Shown here one piece after another: positions 34,685 to 44,860 of a stretch of 64,000 nucleotides of DNA. Below the pieces are notes generated by a model. That model ran no database searches, was not told the DNA's origin, and was given only the letters and a program-made list of their open reading frames with translations. The stretch is from positions 2,266,001 through 2,330,000 of the forward strand of contig NZ_CP159996.1 of NCBI RefSeq assembly GCF_040703035.1. Direction: 5' to 3'. Each line of letters starts with the position of its first letter. The first letter of the stretch is position 1. A program made the position numbers and the translations under genes. Source of the DNA: Terribacillus aidingensis (GTDB lineage: Bacteria > Bacillota > Bacilli > Bacillales > Amphibacillaceae).

Positions 34685-35632
34685 TCACTCCGATTCTAAC
34701 AGCTTTTGTGTCGCTGTATGGACTTTCCCTTCAACTGTGTCGGTAATACTGACAACAGCGATAGGACTTAACCCGACAGCCTGCTCTTCTAAACCGATCA
34801 TATGATTTTCAGGCAACTCTTTACCTTTTGATAACCGTTCAAGAAAATCAAATATAATATGATCAATTTGCACCTGAGCAGACGTGACGACATTTTCAGG
34901 AGCGAGATAGCTCTGGTCACCTCCAGCGCCGATCGCATATACATTCGCGAGTGCTGCTTGCTGCAGCATTGCCTTTCCAGCATCGCCAGGCTCAGCGAAA
35001 AGAATATCTGCTCCTTCAGCAATCATTTCCTTTGCCGCTTTGCTGCCCGCTGCCTTATCATCTGGCGAAGTCTCCCGAACGAGCAGTTCGGTATCCTTGG
35101 ACGTATCTGCAATTCCTTGTTCGAAACCTTCCAGGTAAGCACTGGACGACTCACCAACGAACCCTGCTTTACCAGACTGCGTCACAGTGGCAGCCGCCAC
35201 CCCAGCCAAATAACCTGCCTGCTTTGCATCAAATGAGTAGCCGAACAGATTTTCTCCTTTCAGCTCCGTCTCAAAAGCTATGTATGTAATATCGGGATTG
35301 ACCTTCGACTCACTGGTTACCGCATCCTCCGCTGCTGTTTCCAACGTGATAATCGTGTCCATTCCTTCATCTGCTAGTTCCTTTAATGCTTTCTCATAGG
35401 TTAATTCTGCAGTGATCTCTTTATATGAATAAATGATATCAAGTCGGTCTCTCGCTTTTGTCAGTCCCTCGATCGCTAAATCATTCCCTTCCTGATCTCC
35501 GAGCCCTGCTTCTGTCAAAACGATACCGATACGTTTTTCTTCATCCAATTTAGCTGCTGCCGGGTTTGCCGCACACCCAGATAAATAACATAGAATCAAG
35601 GCACAAATAGGTATTAGGATGTACTTATACAT
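34685..35632 (-). CDS. BMP-family substrate-binding lipoprotein
   Basis: A 315-residue lipoprotein: signal peptide and lipobox YLSGC (Cys at about residue 20), then the basic-membrane-protein (PnrA/Med) fold, with the typical GIVLTEAGLGDQEGNDLA start and AGYLAGVAAATVTQSGKAGF motif. Relatives bind nucleosides or activate competence (Med). No ABC permease or ATPase gene is nearby; instead the chemoreceptor gene follows after 5 nt. That suggests a sensory rather than a transport role, by inference. Confidence 0.88.
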   Translation of the reverse strand: MYKYILIPICALILCYLSGCAANPAAAKLDEEKRIGIVLTEAGLGDQEGNDLAIEGLTKARDRLDIIYSYKEITAELTYEKALKELADEGMDTIITLETAAEDAVTSESKVNPDITYIAFETELKGENLFGYSFDAKQAGYLAGVAAATVTQSGKAGFVGESSSAYLEGFEQGIADTSKDTELLVRETSPDDKAAGSKAAKEMIAEGADILFAEPGDAGKAMLQQAALANVYAIGAGGDQSYLAPENVVTSAQVQIDHIIFDFLERLSKGKELPENHMIGLEEQAVGLSPIAVVSITDTVEGKVHTATQKLLESE

Positions 35633-35814: not shown

Positions 35815-36384
35815 ATGCTAAAACACGTTATCGCTTATGCACACGAACTGATGGAGCAAGTGATTCAGCCAGGAGATACAGTCATTGATGCAACATGCGG
35901 AAATGGGAACGATACACTCGTACTCAGCCGTTATGTCGGCGAAGAAGGAAAGGTGCTGGCATTCGATATACAGGAGCAGGCCATCGAAATGACGAGTAAG
36001 CACTTAAGCCTGCATGATGTCACGAATACGACTTTGATTCTGGACAGCCACCAGCGTGTCGATCATTATATAACTCCCGAAGATGAAGGGAAGCTTGCTG
36101 GAGCCATCTTCAATTTAGGCTATTTGCCAGGGAGCAGTAAAGCTATTACCACCAATGCAGAAAGCACGATTACTGCAATTGAGAAAATCCGTCATGCAAT
36201 GAAACCCGGCGGCAGAATCGTTTTGGTCGTTTATCATGGCCATCCGGAAGGCGCCATTGAAAAAGAAGGACTGCTTGCCCACGTAAAGGATTATGATCAA
36301 AAACATTACGCCGTCTTGCAGTACCGTTTCCTTAACCAAAAGAATACCCCTCCATTCATCATTGCAATCGAGAAGAAAAAGTGA
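35815..36384 (+). CDS. ytqB: YtqB/MnmM, tRNA-modifying methyltransferase
   Basis: A 189-residue class I SAM methyltransferase with motif I VIDATCGNGNDTLVLS (about residues 23-38) and the NLGYLPGSSKAI segment. The YtqB group was identified as MnmM, which methylates nm5s2U to mnm5s2U at the tRNA wobble base. In B. subtilis it converges with ytpB; here about 7.4 kb separates the two. Its stop codon lies in the first copy of the duplicated terminator. Confidence 0.9.
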   Translation: MLKHVIAYAHELMEQVIQPGDTVIDATCGNGNDTLVLSRYVGEEGKVLAFDIQEQAIEMTSKHLSLHDVTNTTLILDSHQRVDHYITPEDEGKLAGAIFNLGYLPGSSKAITTNAESTITAIEKIRHAMKPGGRIVLVVYHGHPEGAIEKEGLLAHVKDYDQKHYAVLQYRFLNQKNTPPFIIAIEKKK

Positions 36385-36426
36385 AAGAAGCGCGAGCCCC
36401 TGGCCAATCGGGGTACGCGCTTCTTT
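36382..36426. repeat. 45-bp direct repeat, left end of the island
   Basis: Identical to 43760-43804 except for G at 36402 versus A at 43780. Same orientation as the right copy, bracketing about 7.3 kb. Confidence 0.95.
36384..36426. terminator. Duplicated bidirectional terminator, left copy
   Basis: Stem AAAGAAGCGCG/CGCGCTTCTTT with inner GCCCC/GGGG pairing, T-run on the plus strand. Bases 36382-36426 match 43760-43804 at 44 of 45 positions. It ends ytqB and also the island's hydrolase gene. Confidence 0.9.
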
Positions 36427-36477
36427 TTTATAGGGTCTTAGATAGAAACTTGATAATATTCGGCGTTATACATATAC

Positions 36478-37455
36478 TCAAAGTCTGTTTTTTAAAAACT
36501 GATACGCCATCTGATCAGCTTCCTCTCCCATTGTGGGGCCGTGATTAGCCTTGGAAGCAGATAGATACATAGCCTCCGCATTTGAAGACACTAGGGCTTT
36601 ATAAAGATTCTCGCTTTGCTCAATAGGTACCAGAGGGTCTTTACCCCCATGCAAAATCATCATCGGTGGACTATCGGCGCTTGCGTATGTAATCGGACTG
36701 CATTTTTTGGCTAATTCTATATACTTCCAATCCAGTTCACTCGTATCACCGCTTTCCAGCAATCCATTCAAATCCAACAACGATTTTCCAGGCTCAGTAT
36801 ATCCAAGAATTTGGGTTATAACAGTATCCATGGACTTGTCTGCATGATCAACTTCTGTTCCAGACAGATTCTTTAATGCTGTATTGGCATCATTTTTGAT
36901 GAGTTCTACTAAGTCGGATGGCGCATAAAAAATTGCTGCTGCCCTTACCGCACTTGTATATTCTTGGTTACCGCCGACATCCCCTTCCATTTCTCTGCAA
37001 TTTGCGCTCATTGCGACCATTGCTGCTAGATGTCCTCCAGCAGAGTTCCCCAACACGCCAATTCGTTCAAGATCGATATGGTATCTATTTGAATTCGCTT
37101 TCAAATAACGCACCACTCCCTTGCAGTCATGAATGCACGCTGGGAAAACAGACTGACTGGCCAAGCGATAGGATGGAGATACAATGGTGTATCCTTGTTC
37201 TACCAACTTTATAAGTTCCCTGAAATAAACTGCTTTCTGGGTAACCTGCTTGTATTCTCCATACATCCACCCACCACCAAAATAGTAAATGATGCAGGGA
37301 CCTGGAGTTTTCTGGTTAAGGTCTTGATAAATGTCCATTTTCAGTGTGTATGACTCACCAGTATCAAGCGCGACCTCGGCAAAGGGTATATCTTCGTAGC
37401 GCGGCGGACGGCCTGGCGGACATAATGGTTTTACATTAGAAATCTGTTGTCCCAT
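36478..37455 (-). CDS. Alpha/beta hydrolase (esterase, BD-FAE/HSL-like)
   Basis: A 325-residue cytosolic esterase-like protein. The oxyanion motif is IIYYFGGGWMYG (about residues 55-66), the nucleophile elbow GNSAGGHLA (Ser at about 143), and the acid and histidine appear as HGGKDPLVP and KANHGPTM. No signal peptide. RBS GGGAGGAAA precedes the ATG. It is the last island gene and could remove an ester from the imported compound; substrate unknown. Confidence 0.85.
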   Translation of the reverse strand: MGQQISNVKPLCPPGRPPRYEDIPFAEVALDTGESYTLKMDIYQDLNQKTPGPCIIYYFGGGWMYGEYKQVTQKAVYFRELIKLVEQGYTIVSPSYRLASQSVFPACIHDCKGVVRYLKANSNRYHIDLERIGVLGNSAGGHLAAMVAMSANCREMEGDVGGNQEYTSAVRAAAIFYAPSDLVELIKNDANTALKNLSGTEVDHADKSMDTVITQILGYTEPGKSLLDLNGLLESGDTSELDWKYIELAKKCSPITYASADSPPMMILHGGKDPLVPIEQSENLYKALVSSNAEAMYLSASKANHGPTMGEEADQMAYQFLKNRL

Positions 37456-37621
37456 ACACGTTTCCTCCCAATATATATTTCAGTCTTTTATAGACCGCCT
37501 AGTTGATAAGAAGGGTTCATCCTGATTTGGAATCAAGGTCTCTATCAGGTTAAAACAAAAACGACTCTAGCTTAATCCTCGTTATACAAGCTAATCCCCA
37601 TCAGTTCCTGTTATTACATAA

Positions 37622-38905
37622 TCAACTTACAGGGAACATAATCATCGCACCAACACTTAGCGCGAAAATTCGAATCACATACATAGGAACGGAGAACAGC
37701 CAGAACTGCGGCAGCTTATACTTACCCATACCTAAGATCATAGCAGGCATACCATCGACTGGCATGTAGCCGCCGTTCCATGCAGATATTACAACTGCAA
37801 CTGCTGCAGCAGTTGGATCAAGACCCAAACTCAGGCTTGTTGCAATAGCGATCGGTGCAAAGATATATACAGAACCCATATTTGAACCAGTAAACGTAGC
37901 ACATGTACTAGTTAAAAGAGCAAAAATGAAGATCAGCATGAATGGACTGATATTAGTCCCTAATGAATTTGCCACGTAGTCTCCTACCATAGCTGTGAAT
38001 CCAGTCTCAGCCAACGCATTGGCAACCCCTATAACACCAGCCATTAACAGGATGACGGGTGCACCCATATTATCTCGAACTTCCTTGAAGTCAAGTACAT
38101 TAATTATCAGCAAGAATGCCCCAGCCAGGCCAGGTATTACATAAGCCGCTTCGCCAAACAAATTCATGAGCATCATGCCTGCTACACTTAAGACAAAAGC
38201 TGCTATCGTAGCGTATTCTTTCCATTGAGGCATGGTATTGATCTCAGAAGCAACTGCCACCTCATCAAATCCAGAATCTTCCGAAATCGGATGATCCGGC
38301 AGTAGACGATAAGCAACCAAAGCCCATGCCAAGAAACCAAGGGTCAAGATGAAATTCACCACTGCAAACTTAGACATAGAAAGCCCGCCGGTAAATCCAG
38401 CTGTTTCTAGTACACTGACAGTAACACCATAAAACAGCGCCACATTAAAAGGAATCAAAGGATGGTTAGTCGCAAATCCCAAAGGCATCATTAATTTAGA
38501 CGTAGGCATTTTTTTATTGTAAGGGATAGTAGATATCAAAGATAAAATAAGCACGTAGTATCCAGTGGAACCAGGTCCAGCTAAACTGGCACCAAACATA
38601 ACCACTACAATCAAAAGAGCATAACTTTTGTATCCTCCCTTATTCACCAAAGCAAGCATAGAACTTTGAACCTTACCAATTACACTCGTCTTCATTAGTC
38701 CCGCCATGACAACCATAAAGCCGGCGACCATGATAACGCTTGAGTTTACAAAGCCGGCGAAAGCCTCGGGAACTGTGGCCAGACCTGTCACTACAAGCAA
38801 AAGGGAAGCTATGAGTGGTGGTGCGCCGAAGGCAAACTTATCTGACATGATCATCACAATCATCAGCACCAAGATACCAAGTGCAAGATACATATCCATT
38901 GTCAT
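37622..38905 (-). CDS. SLC13/DASS-family carrier
   Basis: A 427-residue integral membrane protein with about 11-12 hydrophobic segments, resembling the SLC13 (CitT/ArsB-like) permeases: GPGSTGYYVLILSLISTIP, SLGTNISPFMLIFIFALLTS and CATFTGSNMGSVYIFAPIAI motifs. Such carriers move di- and tricarboxylates or sulfate. The ATG at 38905 (MTMDMYLALG) has AGAGGAG upstream. Substrate unknown; the neighbours point to a sugar acid or related organic acid. Confidence 0.8.
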   Translation of the reverse strand: MTMDMYLALGILVLMIVMIMSDKFAFGAPPLIASLLLVVTGLATVPEAFAGFVNSSVIMVAGFMVVMAGLMKTSVIGKVQSSMLALVNKGGYKSYALLIVVVMFGASLAGPGSTGYYVLILSLISTIPYNKKMPTSKLMMPLGFATNHPLIPFNVALFYGVTVSVLETAGFTGGLSMSKFAVVNFILTLGFLAWALVAYRLLPDHPISEDSGFDEVAVASEINTMPQWKEYATIAAFVLSVAGMMLMNLFGEAAYVIPGLAGAFLLIINVLDFKEVRDNMGAPVILLMAGVIGVANALAETGFTAMVGDYVANSLGTNISPFMLIFIFALLTSTCATFTGSNMGSVYIFAPIAIATSLSLGLDPTAAAVAVVISAWNGGYMPVDGMPAMILGMGKYKLPQFWLFSVPMYVIRIFALSVGAMIMFPVS

Positions 38906-39279
38906 TTTTGTTACTCCTCTCTTAAGCGATGACACTTTGCCGTCATCTGAAGACTTCCTAGAGTCTTCTATGGGTTGTACATCATACTCCCTAATAATCC
39001 CGAGCTAATCCTTTCCGGTGAAGCGGTTACATTATATGGCGCTCCAACGGATAATTTTATATAGGAGCATGTTAAACCGATGTCTCAGATTGCTCTGCTG
39101 CAATCAAACTGCGCACCTTTACTAACAATGTGTTTAAACTATATGCGACAGCGTTGCATGAAAGTGTGCTGCGGCTGCTATGCAAACGCAGCACACCGAT
39201 GCTAGAGTATTAGGAGTCAGCCGCTATGTGTCGCTCCACACTCTATTCATTTGTTGGTAGATTCATCTCGCCTTTCTAC
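38906..39279 (-). promoter_or_regulatory. Control region of the carrier gene, with -10 and cre-like site
   Basis: A 374-nt stretch without genes. On the minus strand TATAAT (39031-39036) is followed by GTAACCGCTTCAC; bases 39018-39031 match the first 11 positions of the cre consensus but not the last three. A 7-bp inverted repeat GAAGACT-N6-AGTCTTC lies at 38949-38968. No good -35 is visible, so an activator may be needed. Confidence 0.4.
39164..39196 (-). terminator. Hairpin after the sialidase-like gene
   Basis: Perfect 10-bp stem GTGTGCTGCG with a 13-nt loop, 84 nt beyond the stop codon. Only TTT follows on the minus strand, so it is a weak terminator or an operator. Confidence 0.5.
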
Positions 39280-40443
39280 TTAGCTTATTTCTCCAGAAGT
39301 TGGGTTGTAGACCCCTTCGTATTCGCGCTTTGCGCCATAAATGTCCTCAACTGTAAAACCATTATATTTTACACACATTCTATTCTTATACGCGTAGACT
39401 AGGTGTAGATACCCTTGCGGATCTTGATAAATAGTTGGATATTCGAACTGTGAATTGTTCGTTTTATTCTCCACTCCAATGAAACCTTCAGCGTGTTCAA
39501 TAATCCGGCCAATCGGCCAAGTTTTACCTGCATCCTCCGACACTGAAACTACGACAGGGTTTCTTAATCCAGGCCAAGCTACTTTGCCTTTTTCAGGGTT
39601 ATTAGCTGAATTAGCGTTATATGCAATCGCAATTGCACCGTTATCCAATTTGATTGCGCTTACACTTGAATTGTTATTTGGCAAGGTTGTTGGCTCGGGA
39701 GCTGTCCAAGAATCTCCATAATCGGTCGACTCACTTCTATATATATAATCTGCGAATCTGCTTCTCATAAATGCCACTAGATGACCATTCTCCAATTCTA
39801 TGACGTTGGCATGTACTCGTCCATTACTATCAGGCATACGTACTTCCTTCCAAGTTAGTCCTTCATCGTCCGACACATGCATTACTGTGGGATCATTCGT
39901 TAGACCAAATTCGGAATCTTCACATACCCACGTGCTGAAAATCCATCTGCCATTACTTAATACTTGAATAGCTTGTCGTGCAAAAGTACCTTGCTGGTTG
40001 AACAACACTTCTGGCTCGGACCAACTTTCACCATTGTCACTTGTTTTTTGATACTTAATAATGGAAGTGAATTGCATATTATCTTTGTCTGGCTGTCTGC
40101 CTTCCTGGGAAGTATAGATCAACCAAACGGAATTATCAGGTGCATGGAAGAATGATGGGTTTTGCTCACTGCGCGTATCGTCCTGTGAGATGATTTTCGG
40201 TTCGTTCCACTCTTGGGAGAGATGATCGAATTTAGATAATACAATTGAAATATCCGGGCTGCCTTCAAATGAACCAGCAAACCATGCACATAGCAAATCA
40301 CCATTTTCCAACTTTGTAACAGTCGGTGCATGTGCAGTTGAAAATGGTCCAGATGGAATCAAAGAAAAATCAATATTTGTATATGCATCATGATATAATT
40401 TACCGTTTGGAATTGACTCGTTAATTACTATTTTATTACTCAT
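39280..40443 (-). CDS. BNR/Asp-box sialidase-like protein
   Basis: A 387-residue predicted beta-propeller. At least four Asp-box repeats are visible: TSDNGESWSEPE, SDDEGLTWKEV, STDYGDSWTAPE and SEDAGKTWPIG. The N-terminal AHAPTVTKLENGDLLCAWFAG segment is typical of the predicted-neuraminidase group (BNR_2). No signal peptide is seen, so it should act on an imported compound. The ATG at 40443 has AAGGTG 7 nt upstream; the GTG at 40452 lies in that site. Classical sialidase activity is not assured, as no FRIP motif is visible. Confidence 0.8.
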   Translation of the reverse strand: MSNKIVINESIPNGKLYHDAYTNIDFSLIPSGPFSTAHAPTVTKLENGDLLCAWFAGSFEGSPDISIVLSKFDHLSQEWNEPKIISQDDTRSEQNPSFFHAPDNSVWLIYTSQEGRQPDKDNMQFTSIIKYQKTSDNGESWSEPEVLFNQQGTFARQAIQVLSNGRWIFSTWVCEDSEFGLTNDPTVMHVSDDEGLTWKEVRMPDSNGRVHANVIELENGHLVAFMRSRFADYIYRSESTDYGDSWTAPEPTTLPNNNSSVSAIKLDNGAIAIAYNANSANNPEKGKVAWPGLRNPVVVSVSEDAGKTWPIGRIIEHAEGFIGVENKTNNSQFEYPTIYQDPQGYLHLVYAYKNRMCVKYNGFTVEDIYGAKREYEGVYNPTSGEIS

Positions 40444-40465
40444 ACTATTCACCTTATCTTTCTAT

Positions 40466-40935
40466 TTAAATTTCGATTTTAATAACTGCTTTTTTATAAC
40501 TCGTCGCTTTATCTATATGTTTTAGAGATTTATGTCCATCGTGAGGCAGACAAATGTAGGCCATGCCTTTATTGATTTTCATAGTCATTTTCGGACTGCC
40601 GTTTAATCGAACGACATCTTTTTCGGCATTGTATGTAACATCTACTGCTAATTGATCAATGGGTGCCCATGCTACATATTCCGATATTCCGATCCATCCA
40701 ATACAATTTGAATATCGATATATTTTTTATGAGCTTCAAATGTCCCTTCATCTATGGGAGTCGTAGATCCTTCCTGAAAGAACAAATAGCCTCCATCAAA
40801 ATCAAATCGCTTATTATAATCTATCTCTGCTTCTTTGAATTTCTTTAAACCGTTGTCGATTTTTGGATTTAAGGATTTATACTCATCCAAATTCTCTATT
40901 ACATCGAAAATCACGCAATTCACTCGTTTCTGCAT
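40466..40935 (-). pseudogene. YhcH/TabA-family (DUF386) gene with an 8-bp duplication frameshift
   Basis: Two overlapping frames together encode a normal ~150-residue YhcH/YjgK/YiaL protein. The first (to 40672) ends KKYIDIQIVLDGSEYRNM-stop. The second continues EYVAWAPIDQLAVDVTY through GMAYICLPHDGHKSLKH to AVIKIEI-stop at 40466. The break lies at a tandem copy of the octamer ATATTCCG (40676-40691); removing one copy restores DGSEYVAWAP. The start is either ATG 40935 or GTG 40914, the latter giving the family-like start (V/M)IFDVIENL. E. coli YhcH (NanQ) is a sialic acid anomerase. It may be a true frameshift, a switchable repeat or a sequencing error. Confidence 0.85.
40676..40691. repeat. 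8-bp tandem duplication inside the YhcH gene
   Basis: ATATTCCG occurs twice head to tail, and the period continues for two more bases. It shifts the reading frame by +8. Confidence 0.95.
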
Positions 40936-41087
40936 TAACGTTATGAGCTATCTTCTTCCCCAGAGAAGGGGTTACATTTTTCACATAAGCTTCTTTGAAA
41001 ACTTCTTGAGTAAGATTCTAGGTTCGACACCCATACTGAGATTTTTGGGGATCAAGCACCCATTTTGCATAATGACTATTTTAATTT

Positions 41088-42092
41088 TTATTTCAAAACT
41101 TCCTTTGGAGACAAGTCAGCTGCCGATTGGATAGCTGCAAGCATACTTCTTTCATCTGCAATATTTTTCCCGGCAATATCAAATGCAGTACCATGGTCTA
41201 CAGAGGTACGAATAACACCGCCATTTAAACCAACCGTGATATTGACCCCCTCTTCCAAGCCTAAGACCTTTATCGGAACATGGCCTTGATCATGATAACA
41301 GGCAACGATCAGATCAAAATCACCACGAACTGCTCGGAAAAACACAGTGTCTGCAGGATGCGGACCGCTTACATTTATGCCTTCAGAAAATGCTTCCTGT
41401 ATTCCAGGAACTAGTTTTTCTTCTTCTTCCCCTTCACCAAACAACCCATTTTCACCCGCGTGTGGATTAATTCCGCAAACCGCGATGCTTGGATTTGTAT
41501 ATCCTGCACGTGTCAACGTTTCGTGAGCAAGCTTTACAACCTTATACGTACGTTCTGGCGTGATAGACTCTACTGCTTTAATCAAGCCAACGTGTGTGGT
41601 TAAATGGATGACTTTTAGTTTTGGCGAAGATAACATCATGGAATAATCAGCTGTTTCCGTTAACTCTGCAAGAATTTCAGTATGTCCTGGATATAGATGT
41701 CCTCCTTTGTGAAGGGCTTCTTTATTTAATGGCGCGGTACAGATTGATTGAATCTCCTTCTTTTTAGCTAACTCAACTGCCTTTTTCAAATATTGGAAGG
41801 CAGCATCTCCTGCTTTTGGGGATAACTCTCCAAAAGGTAAATCAGCTGGCAATAAATCCAAATCAATACAATCGATTCTGCCAAATTCAAATTTACTATC
41901 TGAGACAGATGAAACAGTCTCAACGGTTAATGGAGATTGTGTGATGCGGATGGCTCTTTCAATTATTTTCGCATCACCGATCACAATTGGTCTGCATATT
42001 TCGTAAACAGCTGTATGGCTCAAGGCTTTTACAATAATTTCAGGACCTACACCTGCGGCATCTCCCATGGTAATCCCTATAATCGGCTTCAT
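41088..42092 (-). CDS. PdxA-family dehydrogenase (PdxA2-like)
   Basis: A 334-residue protein of the 4-hydroxythreonine-4-phosphate dehydrogenase family: KPIIGITMGDAAGVGPEI at the N-terminus, TAPLNKEALHKGGHLYPGHT, HLTTHVGL and the metal-binding CYHDQGHVPIK region. B. subtilis-type bacteria make PLP by PdxS/PdxT and need no PdxA, so a catabolic PdxA2 role, oxidising a 4-phosphorylated four-carbon acid sugar such as D-threonate or D-erythronate, is more likely. The second ATG (42092) fits GGAGG (spacing 7) better than the first. Lies downstream of the alcohol dehydrogenase. Confidence 0.88.
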   Translation of the reverse strand: MKPIIGITMGDAAGVGPEIIVKALSHTAVYEICRPIVIGDAKIIERAIRITQSPLTVETVSSVSDSKFEFGRIDCIDLDLLPADLPFGELSPKAGDAAFQYLKKAVELAKKKEIQSICTAPLNKEALHKGGHLYPGHTEILAELTETADYSMMLSSPKLKVIHLTTHVGLIKAVESITPERTYKVVKLAHETLTRAGYTNPSIAVCGINPHAGENGLFGEGEEEEKLVPGIQEAFSEGINVSGPHPADTVFFRAVRGDFDLIVACYHDQGHVPIKVLGLEEGVNITVGLNGGVIRTSVDHGTAFDIAGKNIADERSMLAAIQSAADLSPKEVLK

Positions 42093-42170
42093 CATATTCC
42101 CTCCCACGAACTTCATACTCGGCCTGTCAACATGACTTTCTCTTAGCCATGCTGAAAGCTATAGTAACAA

Positions 42171-43355
42171 CTAAACTAATAATTTGCGATAAATCGCTTC
42201 CATATCCTCTACACTTACATCCTTTGGATTGTTATCCAACAAACGTGTGACTTTAGAAGCCGAAATAGCTAATTCCGGGATATCTTCTTCTGTTACGCCA
42301 TATTCCTTCAAGTTTTGTGGAATTTCCAGTATGTTCGTCCATTCTACAATACGGTCCACTACATTTTGAGCCACTTCTTCTTTTGAAAGTCCTTGAATTT
42401 CAATGTCCATTGGTTCAGCTACAAGGTACAATCGATCTATAATGCTATCCATATTAAATTCCATGACATGAGGTAAAAGCATTGAATTTGCTACACCATG
42501 AGGAATTTTGAACTTTCCTCCCAATGGATAAGCCAGTGCATGTACAGCTGCTGTACCCGCTGCCGTCAGGGCCATCCCGCCATACATAGAACCAACAAGC
42601 ATTTTTTCTCTCGCTTCAACAGACTGTCCATTTTGATAGGCTTCAACGATACTTGCCGAGATAAGGCGAATAGATTCTAACGCAACCATGTCACTGATTA
42701 AGTTTGCTTTGTTTGAGATAAATGATTCCAGTGAATGGGTAAACGCATCCATTCCTGTTGCAGCTGTAATAGGCTTTGGTAACCCTAAAGTTAAAAGTGG
42801 ATCAAGGATTACAATGTTCGGCAGAAGATGCTTGCTTACTATTCCGACTTTTAATTCTTCATCAGGCAATGTAACTATTGCATTTGGCGTTACTTCAGCT
42901 CCTGTACCTGAAGTAGTGGGGATTAACACTGTTGGAGTACCAGGTTTTTCAACTAAATCTGTTCCTAATAGTTCACGGACTGATTTATCATTCGTTCTTA
43001 ATACAGATAGAATTTTAGTGGTATCAAGAACGCTACCTCCTCCAATACCAATTAATACGTCGTAATTTTCAGTGGATGTACTTTGAAATACTTCTTCGAT
43101 GTTTTCAACTGTTGGTTCAGGAAGGATGTTCGTATTAACTTCCGCCTTTATACCCTTTGCTGATAGTTGGTTTGTTATTTGATCTACAAACCCTAAATCT
43201 TTCATTGGTGGCTGTGTAATAATTAAAGCCGACTGTATTTTTGTGCCTACTAAATGAAGTTGCTCTCCTAAATCACCAAGAGAATTTGGTCCGGCAATAA
43301 TATGGTCTGCTGTTTGAAATTTATATAACTTTTGCATTGTCGTTTGCATTGTCAT
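42171..43355 (-). CDS. Iron-containing alcohol dehydrogenase
   Basis: A 394-residue group III (Fe-ADH) dehydrogenase. The NAD(P) loop is GIGGGSVLDTTKIL (about residues 95-108), then TTSGTGAEVTP, and the metal ligands lie in GMDAFTHSLESF and HALAYPLGGKFKIPHGVANS. It oxidises a hydroxyl group of a small alcohol or sugar acid, or reduces the aldehyde product. It is the first gene of the island operon, downstream of a cre-containing promoter. The frame extends to 43415 but the ATG at 43355 has AAGGAAATGAGGT before it. Confidence 0.88.
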   Translation of the reverse strand: MTMQTTMQKLYKFQTADHIIAGPNSLGDLGEQLHLVGTKIQSALIITQPPMKDLGFVDQITNQLSAKGIKAEVNTNILPEPTVENIEEVFQSTSTENYDVLIGIGGGSVLDTTKILSVLRTNDKSVRELLGTDLVEKPGTPTVLIPTTSGTGAEVTPNAIVTLPDEELKVGIVSKHLLPNIVILDPLLTLGLPKPITAATGMDAFTHSLESFISNKANLISDMVALESIRLISASIVEAYQNGQSVEAREKMLVGSMYGGMALTAAGTAAVHALAYPLGGKFKIPHGVANSMLLPHVMEFNMDSIIDRLYLVAEPMDIEIQGLSKEEVAQNVVDRIVEWTNILEIPQNLKEYGVTEEDIPELAISASKVTRLLDNNPKDVSVEDMEAIYRKLLV

Positions 43356-43458
43356 TACCTCATTTCCTTCACTTTTTATGAATGCAATGGAGTATAGTGT
43401 CACTAGCACTGGCATTATTATTTAAATTCCGCTAATACTGCTCCATTCAAACATCTAA

Positions 43459-43475
43459 TGTTTAATATTTAAACA
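43459..43475. promoter_or_regulatory. Perfect 7-3-7 palindrome in the island leader
   Basis: TGTTTAA-TAT-TTAAACA, located about 25-40 nt downstream of the predicted transcription start of the alcohol dehydrogenase operon. It has the form of a dimeric repressor operator; no regulator gene is in the island. Confidence 0.5.
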
Positions 43476-43485
43476 CCATTCATTT

Positions 43486-43499
43486 TTATAACGCTTTCA
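43486..43499 (-). promoter_or_regulatory. cre site (CcpA) at the island promoter
   Basis: TGAAAGCGTTATAA on the minus strand matches the cre consensus TGWAANCGNTNWCA at 13 of 14 positions and lies at the predicted transcription start. CcpA bound there would repress the operon when glucose is present. Confidence 0.7.
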
Positions 43500-43506
43500 T
43501 AAATTC

Positions 43507-43535
43507 ATTATATATACCGTTGTTTAATTTATCAA
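43507..43535 (-). promoter_or_regulatory. Promoter of the adh-pdxA-yhcH-BNR operon
   Basis: TTGATA, 17 nt, TATAAT on the minus strand: one mismatch at -35, perfect -10 and ideal spacing. Confidence 0.75.
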
Positions 43536-43759
43536 CATGTTTTTTGAAATTTACATGCACTGTCACCGGGAGATGGTATGGAAGCAGATCGAGATACACC
43601 TATCACAGTTACAATGCAATTTCCGAATGGTGTCATCCTGATATAATGGGGATTAGAAATGATCTTAGAATATTTTAACGGTTAACGGAGTATGTACAGA
43701 AATTCCTGTTGTTCGACCTGCTCATGTGTTTTTGGCAGCCGTTCATCAGAGAGAAAAAA
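43536..43759. other. Gene-poor right margin of the island
   Basis: About 220 nt upstream of the island promoter without a supported gene. A 22-codon ORF (43578-43646, plus) encoding MEADRDTPITVTMQFPNGVI is too short to call. The last 20 nt before the right terminator copy resemble the 3' end of ytqB (CCGTTCATCA, then GAGAAAAAATGA). Confidence 0.4.
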
Positions 43760-43804
43760 TGAAAGAAGCGCGAGCCCCTAGCCAATCGGGGTACGCGCTT
43801 CTTT
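43760..43804. repeat. 45-bp direct repeat and terminator, right end of the island
   Basis: Second copy of 36382-36426, one mismatch. It forms the same hairpin and encodes the last seven codons and stop of ytpB on the minus strand. Confidence 0.95.
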
Positions 43805-44860
43805 CATTTTATTGTATGCCTTGATATTCAAATGGAAAAACTTCGATTTGTTGCCGCTTGCCTTGAGCAATGTTTTGATCATCTCTTTACTATCCGAAAG
43901 CAGACTCACTTTGCGATCTGCCAAGTACAGTCCGACAAGCCCGTGATGGACCATCTCATGGAATGACGCATGCGGTAGACGCTGGACACTTTCGTTCGTC
44001 CGTTCTATGAAGTATAGGAGTCTTTCCTTCATTTCCTCCGAGTCTCGGTAATAATGGCAGAAATTCAGATCGCCTTCCTCTTCATCCTCCATCTGATCAA
44101 TATAGTAATCCAGCAGAATGTGAAGTCCTTGCATATATGGAAAATAGCTTTGATAGATATCATCAGCCAATTGCTGGTCGATTTCCATCCCCATTCCATA
44201 AGATACAAAGCAGAAGATACCGAGTGTCGACCCGCTGCATGCCGAGAATTCATACCACGTAAGATCCCGGTGTTCCTCTTGATGCAGGGCAAACCAGTTT
44301 GTCAGTCTTTCAATCCGCTCTTCCTTCGCTACGTGCTTGTGCACTTGCAAATCGCCGTATAATCCAGAAAGTTTCAGCAAATACGGCTGCAGAACTTGCA
44401 GATTGGGCTGTTTGCCGAGGATAGTCTGACACGTGAAAACAAGCGAGTGCAAGTATCCACCGTCTTCTTTTTCATCACGCAATGCATAATAATCCTTCAG
44501 CTTTTCACCTGGCTGCAATGCATCCAGCATTGATTGATGCAGCAGGCGAAAATCGTCTGGATCGAGTGAAGTACTGCGATCACATAAATTATCGAGATAG
44601 TCACTGATAGTCTGATAGGCAATAATGAACTTGATTGCCTGCTTCCAAGCATCACCAGCAAGCAGACTGTACACCGCTCCGCCCTGGCAATGGAAGCGTT
44701 TGGTCCGAATACTCTCCAGCGCCTGCTTTCGCAGTTCCGGATCCGGTATCGCTTCTGCCCTCTGTGTCCATAGTTCCAATTCTTTATGTACTTCCGGGAA
44801 TATTTTCCGATATACTTGATGCATAAGTAAAACCGATGACTTTGGTATTTGTTGGGTCAT
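43778..44860 (-). CDS. ytpB: YtpB, tetraprenyl-beta-curcumene synthase family
   Basis: A 360-residue DUF2600 protein, the family that cyclises tetraprenyl diphosphate to tetraprenyl-beta-curcumene, a C35 sesquarterpene precursor. An Asp-rich motif DYLDNLCDRS (about residues 91-100) fits diphosphate-Mg binding. The C-terminal EARTPIG-stop is read out of the duplicated terminator hairpin. The ATG follows GAGGAGC at a rather long spacing (about 12 nt). ytqB was presumably its former neighbour. Confidence 0.88.
   Translation of the reverse strand: MTQQIPKSSVLLMHQVYRKIFPEVHKELELWTQRAEAIPDPELRKQALESIRTKRFHCQGGAVYSLLAGDAWKQAIKFIIAYQTISDYLDNLCDRSTSLDPDDFRLLHQSMLDALQPGEKLKDYYALRDEKEDGGYLHSLVFTCQTILGKQPNLQVLQPYLLKLSGLYGDLQVHKHVAKEERIERLTNWFALHQEEHRDLTWYEFSACSGSTLGIFCFVSYGMGMEIDQQLADDIYQSYFPYMQGLHILLDYYIDQMEDEEEGDLNFCHYYRDSEEMKERLLYFIERTNESVQRLPHASFHEMVHHGLVGLYLADRKVSLLSDSKEMIKTLLKASGNKSKFFHLNIKAYNKMKEARTPIG

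Follow-up and report, generated by a model that had tools for sequence, protein, structure and literature searches.

The 64-kb window of Terribacillus aidingensis analysed here, to which all coordinates refer, carries a catabolic island of ~7.3 kb between the convergent genes ytqB and ytpB, and a copy of the hairpin that lies at this junction in relatives without the island stands at each end of it. With moderate confidence, we read the arrangement as the result of horizontal transfer: a foreign operon would have inserted between ytqB and ytpB and duplicated a junction of ~130 bp, most likely by a RecA-type single crossover, and exchange at the site would have continued afterwards. We refer to the genome of the window as the own genome and to the other genomes compared by G-numbers. 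Both border genes are intact: (i) ytqB on the left (35815–36384, plus strand), encoding a tRNA 5-(aminomethyl)-2-thiouridylate methyltransferase of the MnmM family (NCBIfam NF053511, 235.5 bits at a cut-off of 135; Pfam PF06962, 155.7 bits), and (ii) the DUF2600 gene ytpB on the right (43778–44860, minus strand; PF10776, 470.7 bits).

The two 45-bp copies on which the original prediction was built are present at 36382–36426 and 43760–43804 and extend to a direct repeat of 53 bp (36374–36426 and 43752–43804; 51/53 identical, 96%), the sole direct repeat of at least 40 bp found in the window with an exact seed of 14. The left copy, where ytqB (plus strand) and the island operon (minus strand) both have their 3′ ends, starts with the ytqB stop codon, in agreement with the claim that it ends ytqB. 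The right copy contains a ytqB-like stop together with the last ytpB codons. A search of the own genome (3,576,432 bp) with the repeat at E 0.001 returned these two places and no further ones. A dispersed-repeat reading was rejected on this count and on the lack of any other window repeat of at least 40 bp. An insertion sequence or composite transposon was also discarded, with no transposase among the cargo families (small frames were not searched) and no second repeat of at least 40 bp in the window. The earlier statement that the repeat is not an insertion-sequence end agrees with cargo proteins that belong to other families and with the absence from the window of any other direct or inverted repeat of at least 40 bp.

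Both hairpin copies fold strongly on both strands, and none of 200 shuffles was as stable in any of the four tests. A terminator scan of the region yielded nine sites (5.4 expected, standard deviation 2.3) and called both hairpin copies, but solely on the minus strand. Read on the plus strand, the loop has 9 bases, more than the 8 that the scan allows, and the left copy is followed there by a T run. The bidirectional terminator originally proposed is thus matched by a strong predicted hairpin on both strands of both copies, whereas the scan calls the minus strand alone.

We compared ten genomes of the genus, the own genome and nine relatives, all of which contain ytpB. G005, G006 and G007 are T. 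saccharophilus, G003 and G004 are T. halophilus, G001 is T. aidingensis, and G009 belongs to the same species as the own genome (deposited as Virgibacillus sp. 7505). The island occupies the ytqB–ytpB site in 4/10 genomes (own, G009, G006 and G007), and the site is empty in 6/10 (G001, G002, G003, G004, G005 and G008), with ytqB, one hairpin and ytpB adjacent. Once the palindrome's match to itself on the opposite strand is set aside, the hairpin occurs at two places in each of the four carriers and at one place in each of the six non-carriers. The gene matches of ytqB and ytpB are 22–38 nt apart in the four empty genomes measured. Among 12 loci of other genera, the distance between ytqB and ytpB is 26 nt in Thalassobacillus cyri and 739 nt in a Shouchella, and no ytqB match was found near ytpB at the other ten. 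Because ytqB and ytpB are adjacent in Thalassobacillus too, the empty state is probably ancestral, a polarity drawn mainly from the genus and Thalassobacillus. The original prediction had called for this interval to be aligned across relatives and had named two outcomes that would speak against insertion, namely that all relatives are filled or that the hairpin is a dispersed terminator; neither was found. With six empty sites that hold one hairpin and with no dispersed copies, insertion of a foreign segment at the shared ytqB/ytpB terminator is strongly supported.

The hairpin is duplicated, as predicted, but the duplicated unit is larger than a terminator and includes the tails of both flanking genes. 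A decayed remnant of the ytqB 3′ end precedes the right hairpin (43725–43762, plus strand; 0/300 shuffles as good against the ytqB tail of the same genome in 4/4 carriers). Compared with the ytqB tail of the same genome, this remnant retains 33/38 bases in G007, 25/38 in G009 and 23/38 in both the own genome and G006. In anchored alignments it beat all 300 shuffles in 11/12 tests, including those of each carrier against the ytqB of the same genome; the one exception is G006 against G008, where 13/300 shuffles were as good. A probable decayed remnant of the ytpB 3′ end follows the left hairpin (36427–36477); it is weak in the own genome, suggestive in G007 and clear in G006, where 0/300 shuffles were as good against three subjects. 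We used 300 shuffles for the tails and 60 for longer remnants, the tests were picked after the alignment had been viewed, and the G003 ytqB row was not used. No longer remnants of either gene were found inside the island, with 4–32/60 shuffles as good for ytqB and 14–58/60 for ytpB. When the six empty junctions are combined into a profile, the left copies align to it up to column 506 in G006 and G007, 476 in the own genome and 471 in G009, and the right copies start at columns 375 in G006, 367 in G007, 370 in the own genome and 369 in G009. Left and right copies overlap by 132–140 columns in G006/G007 and by 103–107 in own/G009. From these overlaps, we estimate a duplicated unit of ytqB tail, hairpin and ytpB tail of about 130 bp in G006/G007, of which about 100 bp can still be detected in own/G009. 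Hairpin and ytqB tail are duplicated; duplication of the ytpB tail is supported but uneven between genomes. The distance from the left hairpin to the stop codon of the first cargo gene, a hydrolase, is 50–58 nt across the four carriers.

The right copy represents the native ytqB/ytpB junction, because it continues into ytpB as it does at empty sites. The claim that this copy gives back an intact ytpB stop does not hold, since the copy is itself the ancestral junction, with ytpB continuous. We compared 43-nt hairpin cores from 10 of the 14 hairpins, excluding G003 (pattern not found) and G001, G002 and G004 (hairpin one base longer). With the equal-length empty hairpins of G005 and G008 as references, the G005 hairpin is the closest to the right copies of G007 and G006 (1 and 3 mismatches, respectively) and the G008 hairpin to the own right copy (1 mismatch); the left copies of own and G006 are each 2 mismatches from the G008 hairpin. 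Unlike the other cores in the comparison, the left hairpin core of G007 is inverted: as read, it has 10 mismatches to the right copy of G007, but 3 if reverse-complemented, and it looks as if the palindrome had been flipped in place.

The carriers do not form a group of their own. A concatenated flank tree unites G005, G006 and G007 at 100% and G006 with G007 at only 55%, and the distant loci gyrB and parE give ((G006,G007),G005) beside (own,G009), with 100% at each node of the joint tree. Both the flank tree and the gyrB+parE tree place G005, G006 and G007 beside own and G009 and apart from the five other empty genomes. Because G005 is nested among carriers and lacks a close match to the sialidase-like cargo gene, its empty state possibly reflects (i) loss of the island by recombination, (ii) replacement by an empty allele, or (iii) entry of the island into the other lineages alone.

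Divergence between G006 and G007 changes near the borders of the island. In four island genes, the third codon positions are 69.8, 75.2, 80.4 and 70.5% identical, compared with 80.5–91.7% in six flank genes, where a lipoprotein gene gives the lowest value; between own and G006, there is no gap between island and flanks (73–85 vs 70–81%). In windows of 150 columns, identity between G006 and G007 is 93–98% up to position 36396, then 77% across the left repeat and 89% after it, 85% across the right repeat and 95% from position 43868. Because empty G005 is nested among carriers and the divergence between G006 and G007 rises close to both repeats, we infer that the site kept exchanging. The island allele of G006 or G007, most simply that of G007, was probably exchanged with crossovers near the repeats. 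Exchange in G007 agrees with its fresh ytqB remnant, which gene conversion between the two copies explains equally. The nesting of G005 and the change in divergence near the repeats also suggest excision and reintegration through the repeats. Within the left-flank lipoprotein gene (34685–35632), at columns ~1800–2100 of the alignment of the left flank, G006 is 92% identical to own, 84% to G007 and 83% to G005, which may be a sign of local exchange.

In none of the four carriers was a match to the phage-integrase family (PF00589) or the resolvase family (PF00239) found within the island or next to it, in line with the original prediction of an island without an integrase; elsewhere, the four carrier genomes contain 19 and 15 matches to these families. 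The gaps between island gene matches are at most 696 nt long with a longest open frame of 103 codons, and small frames were not searched against the library. In the sequence of events that we favour, an ancestor of the T. saccharophilus group would have acquired the operon horizontally, by insertion between convergent ytqB and ytpB, with duplication of a junction made of ~40 nt of ytqB tail, the hairpin and ~50 nt of ytpB tail. The likeliest route would be a RecA-type single crossover between this segment in the chromosome and a circle, incoming or excised, that bears the same segment. Such a crossover would require no recombinase encoded by the island, and its product would read complete ytqB, hairpin, ytpB tail, cargo, ytqB tail, hairpin, complete ytpB. 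Later exchanges at the site would have left G005 empty and given G006 and G007 islands that are more diverged than the surrounding genes. Because the layout puts a hairpin copy at each end, transcription from ytpB would not reach the operon, nor would that of the operon reach ytqB, and the duplicated terminator would thereby insulate the cargo. We prefer a crossover for three reasons: no recombinase was found, the same short stretch seems to have served in later exchange, and ComK homologues may point to competence; the own genome has two ComK-family matches above cut-off (G000:C1:1025819-1026259 and 2748884-2749315). Homologous exchange after DNA uptake or a plasmid single crossover, as put forward in the original prediction, fits the junctions, but a long target-site duplication would look identical.

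Several observations weigh against the crossover route with later exchange. The ytqB/ytpB segment was not found on any circle or plasmid or in any donor, and ~130 bp is short for an efficient RecA crossover. The ytpB remnant is clear in G006 alone, with 11–28/300 shuffles as good in G007, 30–82/300 in the own genome and 37–126/300 in G009. Single-gene flank trees unite G005, G006 and G007 in five of six cases, the lipoprotein tree being the exception, and the closest pair varies among them; therefore, recombination in the flanks is common. Divergence of the island between G006 and G007 is uneven, with coding windows ranging from ~80 to 95% identity and single ones at 94–95%, and the lipoprotein gene in the flank shows equal divergence between these two genomes (89.8%). 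Over its first 600 columns, G005 ytpB is further from G006 and G007 than G006 is from G007; this would fit import of an empty allele, but comparable differences are seen in the left flank at a distance from the site. A bolder version of the crossover route, which we put forward as a tentative and rather improbable extension, treats the ~130-bp junction as a reusable dock: the operon would circulate in Terribacillus by RecA crossover alone, exit as a circle via the two repeats, enter via the single one and always come to lie insulated between two terminators.

It is unlikely that a mobile element with an integrase or a staggered cut inserted at the ytqB 3′ end with duplication of its target or attachment (att) site and lost its recombinase later. 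Target duplication predicts the same junctions, and integrase islands usually enter a conserved gene at its 3′ end and leave it intact. Yet the known att cores fall far short of 130 bp, long target duplications are uncommon, and neither recombinase family was matched in or beside the island of any carrier, with gap frames of at most 103 codons not searched against the library. The 3′-end pattern may be compared with a report on transfer-messenger RNA (tmRNA)/integrase islands (PMC12595487). We regard as distinctly unlikely a course in which tandem duplication of ytqB–ytpB (a merodiploid) came first and the operon then replaced the stretch between the outer copies, leaving the gene tails inside. 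The same two tails would be expected, and pneumococcal transformation is reported to yield merodiploids (PMC3784515); this course requires two steps, however, with both inner copies trimmed to 40–50 nt, and no remnant was detected beyond the tails.

We give little credence to multiple gains, in which the island allele of the G007 lineage entered independently of the island in own and G006. The lower third-position identity between G006 and G007 in the island than in the flanks and the near-fresh ytqB remnant of G007 beside the decayed remnants of the other carriers would both follow from separate entries, but all four carriers have the site and the gene order in common (G006 and G007 without an intact alcohol dehydrogenase gene), the stretch from left hairpin to hydrolase stop is of similar length in all, and gene conversion between the copies could also have refreshed the G007 remnant. 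Ancestral presence of the island in the genus, with loss in all six empty genomes, can hardly be entertained: loss through direct repeats would be easy and G005 is possibly such a case, but the other five empty genomes fall outside the group of carriers in the tree, Thalassobacillus is without the island, a close cargo gene occurs in only 4/159 family genomes, and the gene matches at the measured empty sites are so few nucleotides apart.

The cargo lies on the minus strand and comprises five intact genes and one broken gene, so that the six minus-strand genes originally counted are six loci, of which the YhcH-family one is broken. From left to right, these loci encode an alpha/beta hydrolase (BD-FAE/Abhydrolase_3; 36478–37455; Pfam PF20434, 184.9 bits), a CitMHS/DASS-type anion transporter (37622–38935; PF03600, 82.3 bits; TIGR00785, 57.6 bits, below the cut-off of 198.6) and a sialidase-like BNR_2 protein (39280–40452; PF13088, 215.8 bits). 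They are followed by the broken YhcH/YjgK/YiaL-family gene (40469–40935), which has a frame change near 40684 and matches PF04074 on its first piece; against the G009 protein, the own gene falls into two pieces in two frames, and it is intact (153 aa) in G009, of the same species. A PdxA-family dehydrogenase of the 4-hydroxythreonine-4-phosphate/sugar-acid 4-phosphate type (41088–42116; PF04166, 355.7 bits; TIGR00557, 349.9 bits at a cut-off of 290.35) scores 343.1 bits against NF002891, the D-threonate 4-phosphate dehydrogenase model, below its cut-off of 583. The last gene, for an iron-containing alcohol dehydrogenase (42171–43415; PF25137, PF00465), was not found in G007 and is reduced to a 121-nt relic in G006.

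Upstream of the operon, a promoter-like site TTGATA-17-TATAAT (43507–43535, minus strand) is the best of 23 matches, with 11/12 positions; as a class, such sites are in no excess in the region (23 vs 22.6 expected in shuffles). A cre site behind this promoter (43486–43500, one mismatch) was rejected, because 36 such matches occur in the window vs 36.2 expected. Within the alpha/beta hydrolase gene, positions 37090–37104 match the generic cre pattern perfectly; one-mismatch matches occur at chance number in the window. Because protein identity between carriers is high despite third-position differences (84–100% amino-acid identity in four island genes, with 4–32% of third positions different), these four genes look maintained.

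The cargo gene tested, that of the sialidase-like protein, is rare in the family: it reaches 93–100% identity in 4/159 genomes, which are the four carriers, and 43–45% in two others, and 153 genomes, G005 included, have no match at E 1e-30. In a class sample of 398 genomes, own and G498 reach E 1e-120. Among the best 120 of 1272 matches in a protein database, the next 18 sialidase-like clusters are 86–90% identical, and the named clusters among those 18 are Peribacillus, Mesobacillus, Niallia or Bacillus species or metagenome-assembled genomes of Bacillota. In 296 plasmid records with a sialidase-like match, one reaches 70% and 295 stay below 60%, so that no close carrier of the operon was found there. 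The G498 operon runs from a PrpR-type sigma-54 activator through a DHDPS-family protein, an iron-containing alcohol dehydrogenase, a DUF1537 kinase, PdxA and a sialidase-like protein to a transporter. In this operon of the PdxA/DUF1537 sugar-acid type and in the island, iron-containing alcohol dehydrogenase, PdxA, sialidase-like protein and CitMHS-type transporter follow in the same order, with identities of 77, 90, 88 and 84%, respectively; the PrpR-type regulator, DHDPS-family protein and DUF1537 kinase of G498 have no counterpart in the island, whose YhcH-family protein and alpha/beta hydrolase have no match in the 16-kb G498 stretch. Judged by gene content and order, the island is a shortened form of a G498-type operon. 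It has the PdxA-family dehydrogenase of D-threonate/D-erythronate (PdxA2–DUF1537) operons without their DUF1537 kinase, and we assign the cargo as an imported sugar-acid catabolic operon, with its substrate class predicted. Three PF07005 (DUF1537-kinase) genes lie elsewhere in the own genome (G000:C1:112362, 1610241 and 3283686) and none in the island; their products might partner the island PdxA.

Parallels can be drawn with published cases. The cag pathogenicity island of Helicobacter pylori lies beside the glutamate racemase gene between 31-bp direct repeats (PMC7366825); in Japanese strains the repeats are of 22 or 44 bp, and the authors hold that the 44-bp identity would permit excision by homologous recombination (PMC3120642). 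Like the Terribacillus island, it occupies one locus with direct repeats at both ends, but it measures ~37–40 kb and encodes a type IV secretion system in place of ~7.3 kb of catabolic genes, and the Terribacillus repeat, unlike that of the cag island, consists over ~130 bp of a convergent hairpin and the tails of both flanking genes. The Escherichia coli H47 genomic island is likewise small, recombinase-free and located between direct repeats; these are short, and its excision without a recombinase of its own is reported as RecA-independent (PMC5426353), whereas excision of the Terribacillus island is suggested by sequence comparison. Additive events without an integrase are described as merodiploids in pneumococcal transformation (PMC3784515) and as integration by homology-facilitated illegitimate recombination linked to competence or conjugation (PMC3240628). 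These are experimental products, whereas the Terribacillus case is a natural insertion deduced from sequence comparison. In the library searched, no paper named both ytqB and ytpB, and a search on terminator-flanked islands without an integrase turned up one paper, on tmRNA/integrase islands.

With a single-repeat empty site in relatives and neither PF00589 nor PF00239 matched inside, the Terribacillus island is an unusually legible example of a repeat-bounded island without an integrase, a clear though not unprecedented case of gene gain. Gain and loss of gene blocks without an integrase is hard to detect, since homologous exchange is usually scarless. Here the scar can be read from the neighbour tails inside the duplicated terminator, and empty, full and apparently re-exchanged alleles occur together in one small genus. 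The question whether a 130-bp terminator repeat suffices for excision and entry thereby becomes simple to test. The arrangement suggests that a convergent terminator may serve as a tolerant landing place, where neither neighbour is broken and the cargo would be insulated.

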